A stretch of 64,000 nt of DNA from the IMG/VR virus record IMGVR_UViG_3300021364_001752, positions 1 to 64,000 of that record. The stretch is one strand, 5' to 3'. Made by a program: the position numbers and the translations under genes. The DNA comes from a virus. This document shows, piece after piece, positions 25,393-51,514 of this stretch. Below the pieces are notes generated by a model. The model made no database searches, had not been told where the DNA came from, and was given only the letters and a program-made list of their open reading frames with translations. The first letter of the stretch is position 1. Every line of letters starts with the position of its first letter.

Positions 25393-25418
25393 TGCATATC
25401 TGATATGCACCAAAAAGG

Positions 25419-25449
25419 TTGACCTCATTTACATAACATGTTATAAATA
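25419..25449 (+). promoter_or_regulatory. Dual promoter for the tmRNA locus
   Basis: TTGACC (25419-25424), 17-base spacer and TATAAA (25442-25447) form a sigma-70 promoter. The same -10 reads TATAAATA (25442-25449), the full T4 late consensus, so the tmRNA could be made early and late. A palindrome GCATATC-T-GATATGC lies just upstream (25394-25408). Confidence 0.7.
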
Positions 25450-25454
25450 GCTTT

Positions 25455-25516
25455 GTTAGCGTTGAAGCAACGTGGACACATACTGGACCCGGGTGCGATT
25501 CCCGGCAGCTCCACCA
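25455..25516 (+). ncRNA. ssrA: tmRNA acceptor piece (two-piece, permuted tmRNA)
   Basis: The 3' (tRNA-like) half of a circularly permuted tmRNA, placed upstream of the coding half as in alphaproteobacteria. It contains the T arm CCGGG-TGCGATT-CCCGG and ends CAGCTCCACCA at 25516. CAGCTCC pairs with the GGGGCTG that starts the coding piece at 25671, giving a 7-bp acceptor stem with a G-U wobble at pair 3, the alanine identity element. The CCA is encoded. The 5' end is estimated from the promoter. Confidence 0.88.
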
Positions 25517-25529
25517 TAAGGACACTATA

Positions 25530-25658
25530 ATGGCATTGATTTGGACAGGAATACAATACACAAGTTTAGCCGCACTACTGGGAATGTGTGTGACGAAATG
25601 GGTTATTGATTTCCGTGCTTGGAGAGCAGGCAGACAAAAGCCAAAATGCTGCGGATAG
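25530..25658 (+). CDS. 42-aa membrane peptide inside the tmRNA intervening segment
   Basis: ATG 25530 (AAGGA site seven bases upstream) to TAG 25658 lies wholly between the tmRNA acceptor and coding pieces. It encodes one hydrophobic segment (IQYTSLAALLGMCVTKWVI) followed by a basic tail ending KPKCCG. In permuted tmRNA precursors this segment is normally a short processed-out loop. An ORF with a proper ribosome site there is unusual. It may be chance, but length, ribosome site and membrane character argue for a real gene. Confidence 0.5.
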   Translation: MALIWTGIQYTSLAALLGMCVTKWVIDFRAWRAGRQKPKCCG

Positions 25659-25670
25659 TGTTTTTATGAT

Positions 25671-25865
25671 GGGGCTGATCAGGATCGACAGGTGTGAAAG
25701 TGAAGTGGAGTTAACCGGATGACTGCGTAATAAGTCAATCAAACTAGATGCAAACGATAATTTTGCACCATCTGAGTTCGCTCTAGCAGCGTAACCACAG
25801 GGGGTATGGGCTCCACCTAGCAACAGAACGGGCCTCCAAGATGAAACATAGGTTATAGCACATCT
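25671..25865 (+). ncRNA. ssrA: tmRNA coding piece (tag ANDNFAPSEFALAA)
   Basis: It starts GGGGCTGATC at 25671, which pairs with the acceptor piece upstream. The resume codon is GCA 25750 and the tag reads ANDNFAPSEFALAA, ending at TAA 25792. The AND start and ALAA end are typical for alphaproteobacterial tags recognised by Clp proteases. tmRNA rescues stalled ribosomes and marks the broken protein for degradation. The 3' end (about 25865) is estimated. The phage also encodes ClpS and ClpP. Confidence 0.9.
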
Positions 25866-30590: not shown

Positions 30591-31073
30591 ATGCAACAAA
30601 ACGAATATGATGTAGTGCTACTCAAATGTGTAGATGGAGATACAGTTGATGTAGATATTGACCTAGGCTTTGGCGTATGGTTAAAAGATGAACGTGTTAG
30701 AATAATGGGTATTGATACACCAGAATCACGCACAAGAGACAAAGTAGAAAAACTTTTTGGCACAGCAGCAAAAGAAAGACTCAAAGAATTATTAGCAGAA
30801 GGCGGCAAACTAATCACTACAGAAAACAAAGACGGTGAAGATATGAAAGGCAAGTTCGGACGTATCCTAGGCGACTTTTATGTAGAGCGTTACGAAGGAC
30901 AGCGTGAAAAAGTAACAGACATTATGATCGAAGAAGGACATTGTGTTGCTTACTTCGGCGGTAGCAAAGAAGAAATTGCAATGAAGCACATGGCCAATAG
31001 AGAGAAGTTATTACGTGAAGGTGTGGTAAGTAGAGAAGCATATGAAGAAGCTCAAAACCTAATGGAGGACTGA
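30591..31073 (+). CDS. Staphylococcal-nuclease-like (SNase) protein
   Basis: A 160-aa OB-fold nuclease. Family motifs: VDGDTVDVDIDLGFG (calcium and substrate Asp), ERVRIMGIDTPESR (catalytic Arg and Asp) and GRILGDFYVE (second Arg), followed by EEGHCVAYFGG. SNases cut DNA and RNA to 3'-phosphates using calcium. There is no signal peptide, so it acts in the cytoplasm or inside the virion. Late expression fits host nucleic-acid breakdown or release. Confidence 0.88.
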   Translation: MQQNEYDVVLLKCVDGDTVDVDIDLGFGVWLKDERVRIMGIDTPESRTRDKVEKLFGTAAKERLKELLAEGGKLITTENKDGEDMKGKFGRILGDFYVERYEGQREKVTDIMIEEGHCVAYFGGSKEEIAMKHMANREKLLREGVVSREAYEEAQNLMED

Positions 31074-39804: not shown

Positions 39805-39814
39805 ATACTGTATG
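39802..39814 (+). promoter_or_regulatory. Late promoter abutting the start codon (leaderless arrangement)
   Basis: TAAATA (39802-39807, including the previous stop), CTGT, ATG (39812). Identical over 17 bases to the 19629 promoter. No ribosome-binding site. Confidence 0.75.
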
Positions 39815-40594
39815 CGTTATAAAGAAGTTATACCAGAACAAGATAGAATCGTGTCTGTCGGCGGCGACAAATTGCTATATCATTCAACCAGCTATGCGCA
39901 TGCCGCTGCCATACTAAGCGATGATGGATTCAAGCCCGGAGTATCAGATGGCGGGCAACCTGTAAAAAAGGACAGTTTTATCAGTTTTAGTAGAACACCC
40001 GGAAACACATATGCAGGGTCATCTATGACTGTTACATTTGAAATTGATGAAGAAAAATTACAAAGACATTTGAATAGCCAGGCAAGAAAATTTGACATGG
40101 AGCCGCATAGATTTGCAAGATTTTATCACGGAGAGCGTGAAACAAGATTGAACCTAGGCGGTGCTGACAAAATTACAAACTTAAAAAAATTTGTAAGAGC
40201 AATTCATGTATGGCCTGTCAAAGATATACAAGATGTAGCATCATGGGAAATTGAAGCAGACAAAATGCCTGCTATGGTAGGAGGTTTAGACAGTGATCCT
40301 AATCGTGTTGATCCAGCTGATCCTAATGCTAGAACACCCAAAGGCGAAGCACAATATAGAAAAATAGTTACAGGCCATGCAAAAACAGAAGCAGAACCGT
40401 TGGATGTGATGCTTAAACTTGCAAAACAAAAAGGCATACGCACTCATATCTATTTAGACAGAACAGACTTTTTGTCTAAGCGCATAGACCGTAGTGCAAG
40501 GGTAACAAATAGGCCTGCAATTTTTCCAATTGTTAAGGCATTACTACAGCGCAAATTTGTAAAAGCAGCAAGGTTAATAGGCGGAGATAAATAG
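39812..40594 (+). CDS. Late protein, possible ADP-ribosyltransferase-like domain
   Basis: A 260-aa soluble protein. Residues 21-70 (LLYHSTSYAHAAAILSDDGF ... SFISFSRTPG) resemble the opening of ADP-ribosyltransferase/RES-type folds, where Y-H-S/T-T binds NAD and a later S-F-S strand lines the site. A catalytic Glu cannot be assigned with confidence. T4 packages ART enzymes (Alt) in its head, so a late, leaderless ART-like protein could be injected. The alternative is a plain structural protein. The start shares ATGCGTTA with two other leaderless genes. Confidence 0.5.
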   Translation: MRYKEVIPEQDRIVSVGGDKLLYHSTSYAHAAAILSDDGFKPGVSDGGQPVKKDSFISFSRTPGNTYAGSSMTVTFEIDEEKLQRHLNSQARKFDMEPHRFARFYHGERETRLNLGGADKITNLKKFVRAIHVWPVKDIQDVASWEIEADKMPAMVGGLDSDPNRVDPADPNARTPKGEAQYRKIVTGHAKTEAEPLDVMLKLAKQKGIRTHIYLDRTDFLSKRIDRSARVTNRPAIFPIVKALLQRKFVKAARLIGGDK

Positions 40595-40600
40595 TATATG
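40588..40600 (+). promoter_or_regulatory. Late promoter abutting the start codon (leaderless arrangement)
   Basis: TAAATA (40588-40593), GTAT, ATG (40598). A GGAG lies upstream of the core (40583-40586), 11 bases from the ATG, so read-through RNA might still be translated normally, while late RNA would be leaderless. Confidence 0.68.
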
Positions 40601-41695
40601 CGTTACAATGATTTTAAATTAGTTGAATATGTAGATCCAGAAGAAGCCAAGCGTGAAATCTTGACAAAAGTTCAACAACTAGATGTAAATACAGAAGAAA
40701 ACCAAGCTCTGCTTGACAGAGTTTACAGCATTGTGCATCAGACAGGTGTTACTGATAGACTTATGCCCAGCCTAGAAGGTGCTCTTAAAGACGAGTATAA
40801 CGATGCTGCAATCAAAATGATAGCAGAAAAAATTGTAATAGCAAATAGTTTAAATTTAGCGCAAAAGAAAAAATTCTTACAAAACTTAGAAAATAACAAG
40901 TGTGTAAATCACAAGTTATTTCTTCAAAATGGCCATTTCAATTTAGACGAATTGTTCTACAACGACCCTATTAACAAACAGATGTTTTTAGAATTTATAA
41001 ACTTTGGTGCTGGCCAAAAACGTGCAGGTAAAGGTGAACATGCATTTGCTATTCTAAGTCAGAATATTACACAAAAAGGCTTAGGCGATCTTGATGTTGA
41101 TGGTGCACCAGTTGAGTTAAAAGTTGCAACTACAAAAGGTAGCGGTAGACTAGGCGAAGGCGGAGTTAACCCAGAAAAAGCAAGACAAATAATTGCACAA
41201 TTTGAAGAACTAACGGATGCACTAAATGGATACTCCAAAGGTGGACACCAAGGTGATAGTGAATTTATTAAAAGTCGCGGCACTCCAGACAAACCACAAA
41301 AAAGTGTAAACCTAGTAGACTTTACTCGTATATGTAATGCATTGAGATTAGACGAGCAGCGCAGACAAGCCATAGGCAAAGCAGTATTCAATGATAGGTT
41401 TGGAAAGTTTGGCGATACTATTACAGCAGTATTCCAAAAACCTGGTGCAGCACCAACAGCAGTGCTTGATGCTTATATTGAAGCAAACTTTGAATTCTAC
41501 AAAGCAAGTGAAGGTGGCGGCGCATGGCAAACATTAACTAGTATTGCATTAGGATCAAACAGTGGTGTGACAGCTGATACTGGCAAAGCATTAGCTCAAC
41601 TTTTTGCAGATGGCGCTCTTGCTAGCAGTATTCCTGCTGTAATTCCTACACAAGATCCTGAAGTTTTCTATCAAGTTAACCCAGCCGTAAAGTAA
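40598..41695 (+). CDS. Late protein with restriction-endonuclease-like (PD-(D/E)XK) motif
   Basis: A 365-aa soluble protein. Around residues 148-178, GKGEHAFAILSQ is followed by GLGDLDVDGAPVELKVATTKG: Glu, then Asp, then E-L-K, the order of a PD-(D/E)XK nuclease core. The N-terminal 140 residues are helical. Late and virion-linked nucleases of this type are found in T4-like marine phages, but target and role are unknown. It directly precedes the curli-type operon but has its own promoter. Confidence 0.65.
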   Translation: MRYNDFKLVEYVDPEEAKREILTKVQQLDVNTEENQALLDRVYSIVHQTGVTDRLMPSLEGALKDEYNDAAIKMIAEKIVIANSLNLAQKKKFLQNLENNKCVNHKLFLQNGHFNLDELFYNDPINKQMFLEFINFGAGQKRAGKGEHAFAILSQNITQKGLGDLDVDGAPVELKVATTKGSGRLGEGGVNPEKARQIIAQFEELTDALNGYSKGGHQGDSEFIKSRGTPDKPQKSVNLVDFTRICNALRLDEQRRQAIGKAVFNDRFGKFGDTITAVFQKPGAAPTAVLDAYIEANFEFYKASEGGGAWQTLTSIALGSNSGVTADTGKALAQLFADGALASSIPAVIPTQDPEVFYQVNPAVK

Positions 41696-41719
41696 GCAGT
41701 TATAAAAGAACTGTTTCGA

Positions 41720-41743
41720 TAAATATACATGGAGGGCCATGTA
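41720..41743 (+). promoter_or_regulatory. Late promoter within an RBS-hiding hairpin, upstream of csgF
   Basis: TAAATA (41720-41725) is followed by TACATGG (41726-41732), loop AGGG, and CCATGTA (41737-41743), whose last base is the A of the start codon. The Shine-Dalgarno GGAGGG is therefore in the stem-loop. Late transcripts should start near 41730 and cut off most of the left arm, freeing the site. Confidence 0.65.
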
Positions 41744-42225
41744 TGAAAAGAATAGCGAACATCGCCATGTTGCTGCCTATGTTTGTGTCACTGTCAGTGT
41801 CACATGCAGGAGCAGATCTAGTTCATCAGTTTAAAAATCCCAGTTTTAGTGGTATTGGGTATAGCACCCATGTTTTGAGTTTAGAACAATTACAATTTAA
41901 CAGAACAGAGGACATTGCAAAGGCAGCTGAAGCAGAAGAGCGTAGGCTAGAGCGCGAGCTAGAAAATTCAACATTAAACAAATTTATTAAAAATGTAGAG
42001 TCTCGCATATATGCAACATTGAGCAAGCAAATGGTAGACGCTATGTTTGAATCATGCACTGATGACACTGGGCTTACCTGTCCTACAAGCGGAACTACTG
42101 AAATTGAGGATAGCACCATTACTTGGAGCAAAGATACAACCACAGGAGAAATTACAATTGTTGTTGATGGTCCTGACGGTTATACTGAAATCAGCATACC
42201 GGGATCAGGGGAGTTTGCCTTTTGA
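41743..42225 (+). CDS. csgF: CsgF-like curli assembly protein
   Basis: A 160-aa exported protein with a signal peptide (residues 1-23, ending SVSHAG). The mature N-terminus ADLVHQFKNPSFSGIGYSTHVL matches the CsgF start (TFQFRNPNFGG) that plugs into the CsgG pore and forms its second constriction. A helical middle (about 55-105) and a beta-rich end (ITWSKDTTTGEITIVVDG) also fit CsgF, which links the pore to the fibre nucleator outside the cell. Two Cys (SCTDDTGLTC) may form a disulfide. It overlaps csgG by four bases, as an operon partner. Confidence 0.88.
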   Translation: MKRIANIAMLLPMFVSLSVSHAGADLVHQFKNPSFSGIGYSTHVLSLEQLQFNRTEDIAKAAEAEERRLERELENSTLNKFIKNVESRIYATLSKQMVDAMFESCTDDTGLTCPTSGTTEIEDSTITWSKDTTTGEITIVVDGPDGYTEISIPGSGEFAF

Positions 42226-43001
42226 AGTATTTAATGATACTTGGAATTTTATTTTTAACAGGTTGCACGGTGCCACAAAGCGTTCAAGAAGCAATGGATA
42301 GCGAACCTGAAGTCCAAGTAAATCCTATGCAAGCTGAGTTGAGAGCACTACCTGGACCAGATGGCGATCCAGTGCCAATAGGTGTTTACAGTTTTTCAGA
42401 CAAAACTGGACAGCGTAAGCCTGCTGACAGTGTAGCAAATCTAAGTTCAGCTGTTACACAAGGCGCAGAAGTATGGCTTATTGATGCACTACTGGAGGCA
42501 GGCGAAGGCGAATGGTTTAATGTTGTCGAGCGTGTTAGTTTAGACAACATTATAAGAGAAAGACAACTTATACGAAGCACAAGGGAAAATTATGATGATC
42601 CAAGTCCTTTAGAGCCAATGCTCTTCGCAGGAGTGGTTTTAGAAGGCGGAATTATAGGATATGACAGCAACCAGACCACAGGAGGGTATGGTGCAAGATA
42701 TTTTGGAATAGGCGCTGCTACTGAATACAGAGTAGATACTGTGACAGTTGGCATGCGTTTAGTGAGCGTTGGCACTGGAAGAGTGTTAATGAGCGTGGCA
42801 GCAGAGAAGACTATAGCTAGCCATAGGAGTGGGGCAGATGTTTTTAAGTTCTTAGACATGAGCACCAAGGCACTGGAAATAGAGAGCGGATACAGTGTCA
42901 ATGAGCCTACCAATTATGCTGTGAGGGCAGCAATAGAGGCAGGAGTAATAGAACTAATTTATGAAGGAAATCGAAAAGGTTTTTGGACATTTAAACAATG
43001 A
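42222..43001 (+). CDS. csgG: CsgG-like outer-membrane curli secretion pore
   Basis: A 259-aa lipoprotein: signal MKYLMILGILFLTGC with lipid Cys15. It aligns with E. coli CsgG along its length: VGSIIGYESN is VLEGGIIGYDSN here, GARYFGIGA is identical, and YSVNEPTNYAVRAAIEAGVIELI matches the C-terminus. CsgG forms a nonameric outer-membrane barrel that secretes curli subunits. In the constriction loop (KPADSVANLSSAV) the Asn is kept, but the position of Phe56 is Leu and Tyr51 has no clear match, so the channel may be wider or choose other cargo. It lies between csgF and two curlin-repeat genes. Confidence 0.93.
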   Translation: MKYLMILGILFLTGCTVPQSVQEAMDSEPEVQVNPMQAELRALPGPDGDPVPIGVYSFSDKTGQRKPADSVANLSSAVTQGAEVWLIDALLEAGEGEWFNVVERVSLDNIIRERQLIRSTRENYDDPSPLEPMLFAGVVLEGGIIGYDSNQTTGGYGARYFGIGAATEYRVDTVTVGMRLVSVGTGRVLMSVAAEKTIASHRSGADVFKFLDMSTKALEIESGYSVNEPTNYAVRAAIEAGVIELIYEGNRKGFWTFKQ

Positions 43002-43013
43002 GGGCAACGATAA

Positions 43014-43721
43014 ATGAAAAAAATAATATATGCCGCCTTATTTGGTCTTATTAGTTCGGTTGCATTAGCAAATGAAATTTATATCAGTCAAATAGGTGAC
43101 ACATTAGACTTAGACATTACCCAAAGCGGTGATAACAACAAAATAGGAACCAGTTTAGCCGATATGGTTATTCAAGGTGACGACATGACATTCAGTATTA
43201 CACAAACTGGAGATAGCAATACGATTGATGCAACTATAAAAGGAGCCAATTATACAGGCACATGGGATTTTACAGGAAGCAATAACGATGTTGATCTTTT
43301 ATGTAGTTCAACTACCGCAGGCAATTGTGATACTGTAACCCTTAACATAGATACCACTGGCGGATACAACAATTTCACATTTGCTATTGGCGAAACCGCT
43401 TCGGCTGACAGCAGTATTATTAACTTTACTGTGACAGGGGATAGTCAAGTATTTGATGTTACTGTAGATGGCGAAGCAATTGATGTAACAGTTGTAATTG
43501 ATGATGGCACAAGCGGTCTTACAAACACAGCGGGCAACACTAACAATTTAACAATTGATACAAGTGGCAATGGCGGAACCAACGGTAACACAGTTGACTT
43601 GAACATTACAGGTTCGGGTGGGACATACAACGTTACACAAACAGGAACGCTAATTGATCAGACCATTGATGCAACATTCAGTGGCGATGACGCAACAGTT
43701 GATATCACACAGAGCGACTGA
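43014..43721 (+). CDS. Curlin-repeat protein 1 (CsgA/CsgB-like)
   Basis: A 235-aa exported protein with a signal peptide (residues 1-20, ending VALANE). The mature part carries curlin-type repeats with Q-x-G-D-x-N spacing: ISQIGDTLDLDITQSGDNNK, FSITQTGDSNTIDATI, NVTQTGTLIDQTI, ending VDITQSD. Each predicts a strand-turn-strand unit of an amyloid beta-solenoid. It is longer than CsgA, with a Thr/Asp/Gly-rich middle. As the first gene after csgG it is the obvious cargo. Whether it forms amyloid cannot be told from sequence alone. Confidence 0.82.
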   Translation: MKKIIYAALFGLISSVALANEIYISQIGDTLDLDITQSGDNNKIGTSLADMVIQGDDMTFSITQTGDSNTIDATIKGANYTGTWDFTGSNNDVDLLCSSTTAGNCDTVTLNIDTTGGYNNFTFAIGETASADSSIINFTVTGDSQVFDVTVDGEAIDVTVVIDDGTSGLTNTAGNTNNLTIDTSGNGGTNGNTVDLNITGSGGTYNVTQTGTLIDQTIDATFSGDDATVDITQSD

Positions 43722-44812
43722 TGTGGAGATTGTTATTTGTGCTGCTGTTTTTTGCCAGCAGTGCTATAGCTCAAATAGGCGAAATCGCTGACATAGAAGG
43801 CAGCGGCATTGTTAAGCGTGACAGTGAAAAGATAAAAGGTGAACTGGGCATTGGTGTTCAAATGGCCGACAAAATTATTACGGCCAAAGGACGTATGCAA
43901 TTACACTTCTCTGACGAAACTCGTGTAGACGTAACTGAGCATAGTGCAATGGTGATCGATGAGTTTATATATGATCCTGCACAAGGCACAGGTGCATTAA
44001 AAATGCGAGCTACATTGGGTGCAGTAAGATATGCCAGCGGACAGATAGCCAAAACCAGCAGACAAAGAGTTAGTATCAGAACACCTAGTGCAACTATCGG
44101 TGTTCGCGGCACAGACTTTATAATGATTGTTGATGAAATAGGCGGCAGCATGGTTACCCTCTTACCTAGCTGTGATGACAGAGGCTTTTGTATGGTTGGT
44201 GAAATTACTGTAGAGAGCGATGCAGGTATTGTAATAATGAATCAAGCCTATCAAACAACAATAGTTAAACACAGTGCTGCTCCTCCTGCGCCACCTAAGA
44301 TATTAGACTTACCAGACGATCTTTTACGTGCAATGTTGATAGTAAGAAAGACTTCTCCTTACGATGAAATTAATGAAGAGGCTGTAGCTGCAACAGATAT
44401 TTTAAAATTTGATTTTCTAGCATTTGATGGTTTAGATGAGGATTTACTTAATGCAGATGAGCTATGGGTAACTGATTTAGACAATGAATCTTATTTAAAC
44501 CAAATGTTTGTAGATCAGTTAACCCAGGCACTGAAAGAATTGTTCGCATTACTTACAAGTCTATTGGATTTACAAGCAGAAGAATTTATGCGTATACAAG
44601 TATTTGGATACGATCCCGAAACTGGTATAACCTTAGAAGACCAGCCACCAAATTATGTATTCACACGAACAGAAAATACACACCATGTGAGATTAACATT
44701 GAATGAAAATTATGGTTATAATATTGATTTAATTCAAAACGATTTTTCAATATTTGATTACAGTATAGGAGTAGGAGCAAATGACATTTACATCAATCAG
44801 CAAGAAAATTAA
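43721..44812 (+). CDS. FecR-domain protein in the curli-type operon
   Basis: A 363-aa exported protein with a signal peptide (residues 1-17, ending SSAIA). A FecR domain spans about residues 45-160: DKIITAKGRMQLHFSDETRVDV, then VSIRTPSATIGVRGTDFIMIVDE, the hallmark TP-T/S-A-x-x-G-V-R-G-T. In bacteria such domains sit in the periplasm or at the surface as sensors or peptidoglycan/sugar-binding scaffolds. The remaining 200 residues are acidic and helical, then beta. It lies between the two curlin genes, overlapping the second by 32 bases, so a role as fibre anchor or assembly factor is likely. Confidence 0.8.
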   Translation: MWRLLFVLLFFASSAIAQIGEIADIEGSGIVKRDSEKIKGELGIGVQMADKIITAKGRMQLHFSDETRVDVTEHSAMVIDEFIYDPAQGTGALKMRATLGAVRYASGQIAKTSRQRVSIRTPSATIGVRGTDFIMIVDEIGGSMVTLLPSCDDRGFCMVGEITVESDAGIVIMNQAYQTTIVKHSAAPPAPPKILDLPDDLLRAMLIVRKTSPYDEINEEAVAATDILKFDFLAFDGLDEDLLNADELWVTDLDNESYLNQMFVDQLTQALKELFALLTSLLDLQAEEFMRIQVFGYDPETGITLEDQPPNYVFTRTENTHHVRLTLNENYGYNIDLIQNDFSIFDYSIGVGANDIYINQQEN

Positions 44813-45473
44813 ATTGCTGGTATTATTTGCAGCATTTCCTGCCCATGCTAACGAAATTTATATTACGCAAACCGGTGATAGCCTTGCCTTGCGTGTTGAG
44901 CAGCGAAGTGCAGACAATTATGTCAATCTAAGCAGCACTGGTAATACAAACGACATAAGCATTACACAAGGCATGCATTACGATGGCTCTACATATTGGG
45001 TAGACACAGACGAGACTGGTGGACACGAAGCATACTGGACCATTACTGGTGCAAACAATACCGTGTGGAGTAGTCAAACAGATGTCAACAGAGGTGGTGG
45101 TGGAGGATCTCCGCACCATTTGGCAAACATAGTAAATGGAGATTACAATACAATTGCACATACACAAATGGGAAAAGCAGGACACGATGGCTTTGTAGAA
45201 ATACAAGGTGACAACAATGATGTTACACTTTATCAGAGAGGTAATGGTGGTGCAAAGTGGGCAGATGTTGTGCTCAACGGTGATGGACATAGTGTAGACG
45301 TTAACCAAAGAGGAAGCCAAAGTGCTAATGCTACTGTAGATTTAACCAATAGTGGCGGTGCATATGATTTTATACTCACACAGAATGTTACTACTAGTGC
45401 TGATACATATAGTATAACTGGCATTTGCACAAACAGTGCAGGTTGCGCATTGTCTGTTGATCGCAACAACTAA
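44781..45473 (+). CDS. Curlin-repeat protein 2
   Basis: A 230-aa exported protein with a signal peptide (residues 1-23, ending FPAHAN). The mature start EIYITQTGDSLALRVEQRS parallels curlin protein 1 (EIYISQIGDTLDLDITQS), so the two arose by duplication or form a major/minor pair like CsgA/CsgB. Repeats continue (DISITQGMHYDG, VEIQGDNNDVTLYQRGNGG, VDVNQRGSQSANATV, FILTQNV). It is richer in aromatic and His residues than protein 1. The AGGAG site lies in the end of the FecR gene. Confidence 0.82.
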   Translation: MTFTSISKKIKLLVLFAAFPAHANEIYITQTGDSLALRVEQRSADNYVNLSSTGNTNDISITQGMHYDGSTYWVDTDETGGHEAYWTITGANNTVWSSQTDVNRGGGGGSPHHLANIVNGDYNTIAHTQMGKAGHDGFVEIQGDNNDVTLYQRGNGGAKWADVVLNGDGHSVDVNQRGSQSANATVDLTNSGGAYDFILTQNVTTSADTYSITGICTNSAGCALSVDRNN

Positions 45474-45952: not shown

Positions 45953-46018
45953 TATGTGGACCGCGGCGTGAGGGCGCAACCGGCATAACAAGAAGTCTTC
46001 AATCAAGGAGAACATTAA

Positions 46019-47529: not shown

Positions 47530-47564
47530 ATTGCCCTCATTGGATAAATACCTTTGAGGGCAAT
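47530..47564 (+). promoter_or_regulatory. Late promoter within an RBS-hiding hairpin
   Basis: A perfect 10-bp inverted repeat, ATTGCCCTCA (47530-47539) and TGAGGGCAAT (47555-47564), encloses the late core TAAATA (47545-47550). The right arm holds the ribosome site GAGGGC directly before ATG 47565. Read-through RNA would sequester the site; late RNA, starting near 47556, would not. This matches the design known for T4 genes such as e and soc. Confidence 0.75.
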
Positions 47565-47960
47565 ATGAGAATAATAATTTTATTATGTATACTGGCGGGA
47601 CCAGTATGGGCTGACTCCAATCACGATAGCAAACTCTGCTTGGAGCGGTATGGGTATTCTGTAGAAAATTTTGATAGGTTTGACTGGAACAAAGCAGCAG
47701 CATGTGCAAGTAAACTAAGACAAAAACAAAATGCAGAAGAATTAGCAGAACTAAGAGACTTTCTCAAACATAATCCAAGATACAGAGTGCCAGGACAGAG
47801 TTTAAATCGTTGCTGGGGCAAGCCACGTGAAATGCCGTTTGAAAGTGTAACAGCAAGTGCCAGTGCAGATGGCAGTTGGCATGTGGGTGTAAATTATAAA
47901 GATAAACTGCCAGCAGGATGCTATGAAAATGCTCCGTGGGATAATAGGGACTCAAAATAA
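47565..47960 (+). CDS. Exported Cys-containing protein, 131 aa
   Basis: A signal peptide (residues 1-16, ending GPVWAD) and a mature domain with four Cys (SKLCLERY, AAACASKL, LNRCWGK, AGCYEN) likely forming disulfides in the periplasm. Not recognised. It is controlled by a hairpin/late-promoter switch, which argues that early expression is harmful, as for lysis or envelope proteins. Confidence 0.65.
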   Translation: MRIIILLCILAGPVWADSNHDSKLCLERYGYSVENFDRFDWNKAAACASKLRQKQNAEELAELRDFLKHNPRYRVPGQSLNRCWGKPREMPFESVTASASADGSWHVGVNYKDKLPAGCYENAPWDNRDSK

Positions 47961-51476: not shown

Positions 51477-51514
51477 TTGCCCTCCTGGTAGAACGCCCTC
51501 ACGCTCTGCACTTG

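Follow-up and report, generated by a model that had tools for sequence, protein, structure and literature searches.

The csgF gene analysed here probably carries a late-translation gate of the T4 type, in which the Shine-Dalgarno sequence (SD) and the AUG would be freed by late initiation. On RNA that reads in from upstream, a 9-bp hairpin would take up the csgF SD and AUG and repress translation; late RNA polymerase would initiate at a GATAAATA core, so that the mRNA would start at about position 41731 (GGAGGGCCAUGUAUG...), and this late mRNA, deprived of the left arm of the hairpin, would expose the SD at its 5' end and allow csgF translation. In this model the activity of the core as a late promoter, the existence of read-through RNA and a real difference in translation are presumed, and the predicted gating of csgF by the hairpin is well supported by the analyses described below.

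The gene belongs to a curli-type cluster (Table 1) in the window, that is, the whole 64-kb stretch of DNA that was analysed, which is part of an 80-kb fragment from an uncultured marine phage lineage. An adenylate-cyclase-like gene farther downstream is common to the cassettes of the window, HTVC008M and Melnitz, and a virion protein is common to the window and nine of the records G001-G011. A close relationship with HTVC008M was considered and rejected: HTVC008M core proteins do not match the window, and the lineage is therefore described only as uncultured and sharing the curli cassette. A permuted tmRNA gene of alphaproteobacterial type (25415-25837; Rfam RF01849 and RF04321) hints at an alphaproteobacterial host. 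Small cellular-looking genes were also observed at 30591, 31801, 36071, 36567 and 36869, with nuclease-like, cell-wall hydrolase-like, Hsp20-like, ClpS-like and heme-oxygenase-like features as judged by eye.

Table 1. Positions of the features discussed, in window coordinates.
Feature	Position	Strand	Remarks
Gene 40598 leader	40586-40600	+	GATAAATA ends 4 nt before ATG; no usable SD; candidate leaderless-late type
Weak stem AAGCAGTT/AACTGTTT	41694-41716	+	-5.3 kcal/mol; just 5' of late core
Late-promoter-like core GATAAATA	41718-41725	+	-13 to -6 in T4 numbering; presumed active
Left arm TATACATGG	41724-41732	+	only the last two G would survive late initiation
Predicted late +1	41731	+	first G of csgF SD; predicted from T4 register and peak of core-to-SD gap
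Shine-Dalgarno GGAGGG	41731-41736	+	GG in stem, AGGG forms the loop; 6 nt from ATG 41743
Right arm CCATGTATG	41737-41745	+	contains csgF start codon 41743-41745
csgF	41743-42225	+	160 aa; Pfam PF10614 (CsgF), E 1.4e-12
csgG	42222-43001	+	259 aa; PF03783, E 2.3e-51
Remaining curli-type cluster	43014-45473	+	two curlin-repeat proteins and one FecR-domain protein
Second hairpin ATTGCCCTCA/TGAGGGCAAT, 10 bp	47530-47564	+	predicted to occlude SD of gene 47565-47960

A sequence-only reading of this DNA had described a TACATGG-AGGG-CCATGTA hairpin that would hold the csgF SD directly after the late core. The motif is present as described, at 41726-41743, and is unique in the window (0.01 matches expected from shuffles at up to 3 mismatches); the SD does lie in a stem-loop adjoining the core, and the AUG is enclosed too. 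The stem is longer than first noted, with 9 bp at 41724-41745 (TATACATGG-AGGG-CCATGTATG): 8 Watson-Crick pairs and one T-G (G-U in RNA), the extension consisting of A-T and T-G. The leader reads ...TTTCGATAAATATACATGGAGGGCCATGTATGAAAAG... in context. The RNAfold energy of the hairpin was -9.7 kcal/mol (z -4.2), none of 200 dinucleotide shuffles being equally stable, and Rfam gave no match at this site. A five-codon ORF, AUG GAG GGC CAU GUA UGA, was observed inside the hairpin (41729-41746); its stop overlaps the csgF start codon, it would be present on long transcripts only, and no SD of its own was seen.

Same-strand genes reach csgF, and the terminator scan called none on the + strand between 34515 and csgF. 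The stem at 41694-41716 is a possible weak terminator, though it was not called by the scan. The upstream neighbour of csgF stops at 41695, 28 nt 5' of the csgF stem; because of this distance, a terminating upstream ribosome should leave the stem unmelted.

Since late TATA boxes in T4 extend from -13 to -6 (PMC2988020), +1 was placed 6 nt past the last A of the core. Late initiation would then remove the left arm, as the earlier reading had proposed. The predicted cost of opening the csgF SD-to-AUG region falls from about 10.3 kcal/mol with the full stem to 1.3 kcal/mol for RNA starting at 41731 (10.0 and 2.9 kcal/mol in the long-versus-late comparison used for the shuffle test below), and with 5' ends from 41729 onwards it does not exceed 2.6 kcal/mol. 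Among the related loci, core and SD are most often separated by 5 nt (24 sites), which would set the SD at +1, and the core-to-ATG gap peaks at 5 (34 sites) and 4 (15 sites), whereas T4 is without such a peak; in HTVC008M taken separately, gap 5 accounts for 12 of 45. This phasing is independent evidence and supports both the core and the T4 register. ATAAATA is found 14 times in the window, 13 of them on the gene-bearing + strand, a total below shuffle expectation.

The 64-kb window contains 39 perfect 8-bp stems (loop 3-16 nt); such stems are not rare, so that a test more specific than fold energy was needed. We used ddG, the SD-to-AUG opening cost on the long transcript minus the cost on the predicted late transcript, compared with shuffles. 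For csgF, P was 0.025 with shuffles keeping core and SD, and 0.035 when the shuffles were made in another way that kept the core; this SD-to-AUG measure was adopted after the result with SD-only opening cost had been seen, a measure that understates compact hairpins (window P 0.11). Taken alone, the csgF hairpin is moderately unusual (P about 0.03). The window contains 11 genes with a late core and an SD, and the top two by ddG are csgF and gene 47565. The hairpin of the latter holds a late core GATAAATA in its loop (47543-47550), its predicted +1 is 47556, the first G of the GAGGG SD, and its opening cost is 17.3 kcal/mol (long) versus 1.9 kcal/mol (late), P 0.005, which is stronger than at csgF.

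These site-level P values and the abundance of 8-bp stems count in favour of the csgF stem having arisen by chance, from a G-rich SD lying beside CCATGT, with no regulatory role. We consider this unlikely, given that a second, stronger hairpin follows the same gene cluster in the window, and that an excess of removable structures and partner-specific arms are found across the family; the several core-bearing orthologues without structure remain in its favour.

Relatives of csgF were collected from IMG/VR and phage records and near-duplicates removed, which left 79 upstream regions, start-codon choice being uncertain in distant members. A core lies 10-30 nt upstream in 33 of them and 4-8 nt upstream (leaderless type) in 11, while 35 have no core within 30 nt. 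The 33 core-bearing leaders had a mean ddG of 5.76 kcal/mol, compared with 3.19 +- 0.34 kcal/mol when shuffled, a level reached by 0/200. Strong removable structure (ddG of at least 5 kcal) was present in 14 of these 33 leaders (7.1 expected), and in several others with a core no structure was found. The expectation that the stem would be conserved wherever csgF is conserved did not hold, strong removable structure being limited to 14 of the 79 orthologues.

Compensatory changes had been suggested as a check: whole arms match their own partners, but no clean pair changes were traced within a single alignable stem. In the partner-swap test, which compares whole arms and is not a per-base-pair covariation test, csgF left arms fitted their own right arm better than those of others (20/2000 permutations). 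Unrelated arms serve the same design, for instance CCTCCAAT/ATTGGAGG (L019), ACTCTCCT/AGGAGAGT (L093) and TCCTTAT/ATAAGGA (L043). The arms directly follow the core in L013, as in the window, and surround it in L019, L093, L086 and L043. Terminator-like stems lie directly 5' of the core instead in L015 and L089, and HTVC008M csgF has no hairpin and carries a leaderless-type late core instead. Across these phages, the recurring trait of csgF leaders appears to be a design with unrelated arms and not one stem; as the stem is not kept with csgF, re-invented late-only translation would be a better description.

The same variation bears on a different role for the hairpin, in which a phage translational repressor would bind it or RNA processing would act on it, independent of the choice of 5' end. 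T4 does encode repressors that bind RNA, among them RegA as well as gp43, which has a hairpin operator, and its RegB cuts GGAG (PMC3014915). However, arms and loops differ from phage to phage and only the removable geometry recurs, so that a sequence-specific protein is ill-suited, and we regard this explanation as improbable. An action on DNA or transcription, as promoter part or terminator, is more improbable still: the hairpin abuts the promoter core, and the L015 and L089 stems are terminator-like, but the csgF stem is without a following T run, the scan does not call a terminator there, and enclosure of SD and AUG would be needless for either function.

The family-wide P values are descriptive, because most statistics count clustered yet related sequences as independent and use mononucleotide shuffles of short segments, several analyses share overlapping data, and thresholds were picked along the way. 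With this reading, the late-core genes with an SD in the loci (n=111) had a mean ddG of 3.52, compared with 1.92 +- 0.18 when shuffled, and 29 of the 111 exceeded 6 kcal (7.5 expected); non-late genes of the same loci gave no excess (1.13 versus 1.39). A genome survey covered pieces of four related viral records together with the remainder of the record from which the window is taken. Its 64 late genes had a mean of 3.11 versus 1.86 +- 0.23, with 13 above 6 kcal versus 3.1 expected, and many of the strong late-gene sites lie around the curli cassette. The non-late controls of the survey had a mean of 2.02 versus 2.00, with 7/144 at P < 0.01, slightly above expectation. Partner-swapping gave 0/2000 for all late genes with an SD, and no effect for the non-late control. 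HTVC008M as a whole showed no hairpin excess (9 genes). An IMG/VR pattern scan for core-N5-GGAGGG-ATG matched unrelated phages and was discarded.

The ddG method was also applied blind to the first 100 kb of T4, where e, 49, I-TevII and segB, all hairpin-regulated genes (PMC3014915, PMC2988022), were the top four of 14 late genes with an SD; T4 soc was not recovered by this method in the same 100 kb.

At 39812, 40598, 19639, 24984 and 50174 in the window, a late core ends 4-5 nt ahead of an ATG that lacks a usable SD, and the same layout is found in L161 csgF and in HTVC008M (L219-L221); these are candidate leaderless late mRNAs. Homologues of gene 40598 in L050, L134 and L055 have SD hairpin-type leaders. 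It is about an even bet that late initiation in these marine phages is phased to the start of translation, with the core 5 nt from the SD or the AUG and the mRNA beginning exactly there. Where the SD is phased, late mRNA would begin at the SD and the occluding arm upstream would be disposable; where the AUG is phased, a leaderless late mRNA would begin at the AUG and read-through RNA would be without an SD. That csgF orthologues switch between the two solutions suggests selection for late-only translation and not for one structure.

A conserved element, (AGA)GCGTGAGGG(C), was also observed 8-23 nt downstream of TAAATA at 15 of 17 distinct sites (chance about 1.3%). It is present in L026, L042, L054, L066, L089, L114, L154, L179, L185, L346 and L361, and in the window at 45966 (+) and 51496-51506 (-). 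In L066, L089 and L185 it is followed by a terminator-like stem with no obvious ORF, which makes small late RNAs possible.

The hairpin had further been proposed to keep the curli-type operon off until late time, even with read-through from upstream. The gate at csgF itself is supported, but later cluster genes have their own start regions, so that silencing of the whole operon is conjectural. csgG could follow csgF translation by stop-start overlap, its TTG start at 42222 overlapping the csgF stop TGA (42223-42225).

As for the late-transcription machinery, searches of the 80-kb fragment and of its nearest relatives, themselves fragments, found neither gp55 nor gp45. A gp55-like sigma is encoded by G011, a 300-kb record that shares a virion protein and csgF with the window, and both gp55 and gp45 are present in G012 and G015. 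The gp55 PHROGs used, 234 and 12791, were identified from T4 and HTVC008M gp55 and replaced PHROG 274, which was wrong.

If csgF is kept untranslated until late, a late role, for example in release or lysis timing, would be favoured over an early one; such a role has been proposed for Melnitz (PMC9004378). One published attempt at late-promoter prediction in pelagimyophages failed (PMC7029224), and the core spacing of 5 nt to SD or AUG offers a usable rule for it. The curli cassettes of pelagimyophages and of the Melnitz methylophages share csgF/csgG, curlin-repeat, FecR-domain and adenylate-cyclase genes with that of the window, and the available parts of PMC7029224 and PMC9004378 do not describe a hairpin gate for them.

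The timing trick itself is known from T4; new here are the curli genes and the uncultured phage lineage, so that a textbook device would now cover a curli-pore cassette and marine phages that are difficult to culture. In T4 e (lysozyme), 49, soc and I-TevI, SD or AUG is sequestered on early read-through RNA and late promoters remove the left arm; the inhibitory structure of gene e cuts lysozyme synthesis about 100-fold (PMC3014915). csgF resembles these genes in having the core between or beside the arms, SD and AUG in the helix and a predicted late start in or after the left arm, and the predicted opening costs show the same kind of effect (16.1 to 1.6 kcal/mol for T4 e, 10.0 to 2.9 kcal/mol for csgF). 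It differs from them in being a curli pore gene, not one for lysis, capsid or nuclease, and in its uncultured marine lineage. Further relatives in kind are the hairpins of T4 I-TevII, I-TevIII and segB and of Aeh1 mobE (PMC2988022), which, unlike that of csgF, belong to introns or mobile endonucleases. T4 I-TevII (CCTCGTAT-AAATATGA-ATACGAGG) has the layout of L019 and L093 csgF, with the core inside the hairpin and the SD in the right arm; compared with both groups of T4-type hairpins, the csgF hairpin of the window is more compact, and most of the core lies outside its stem.
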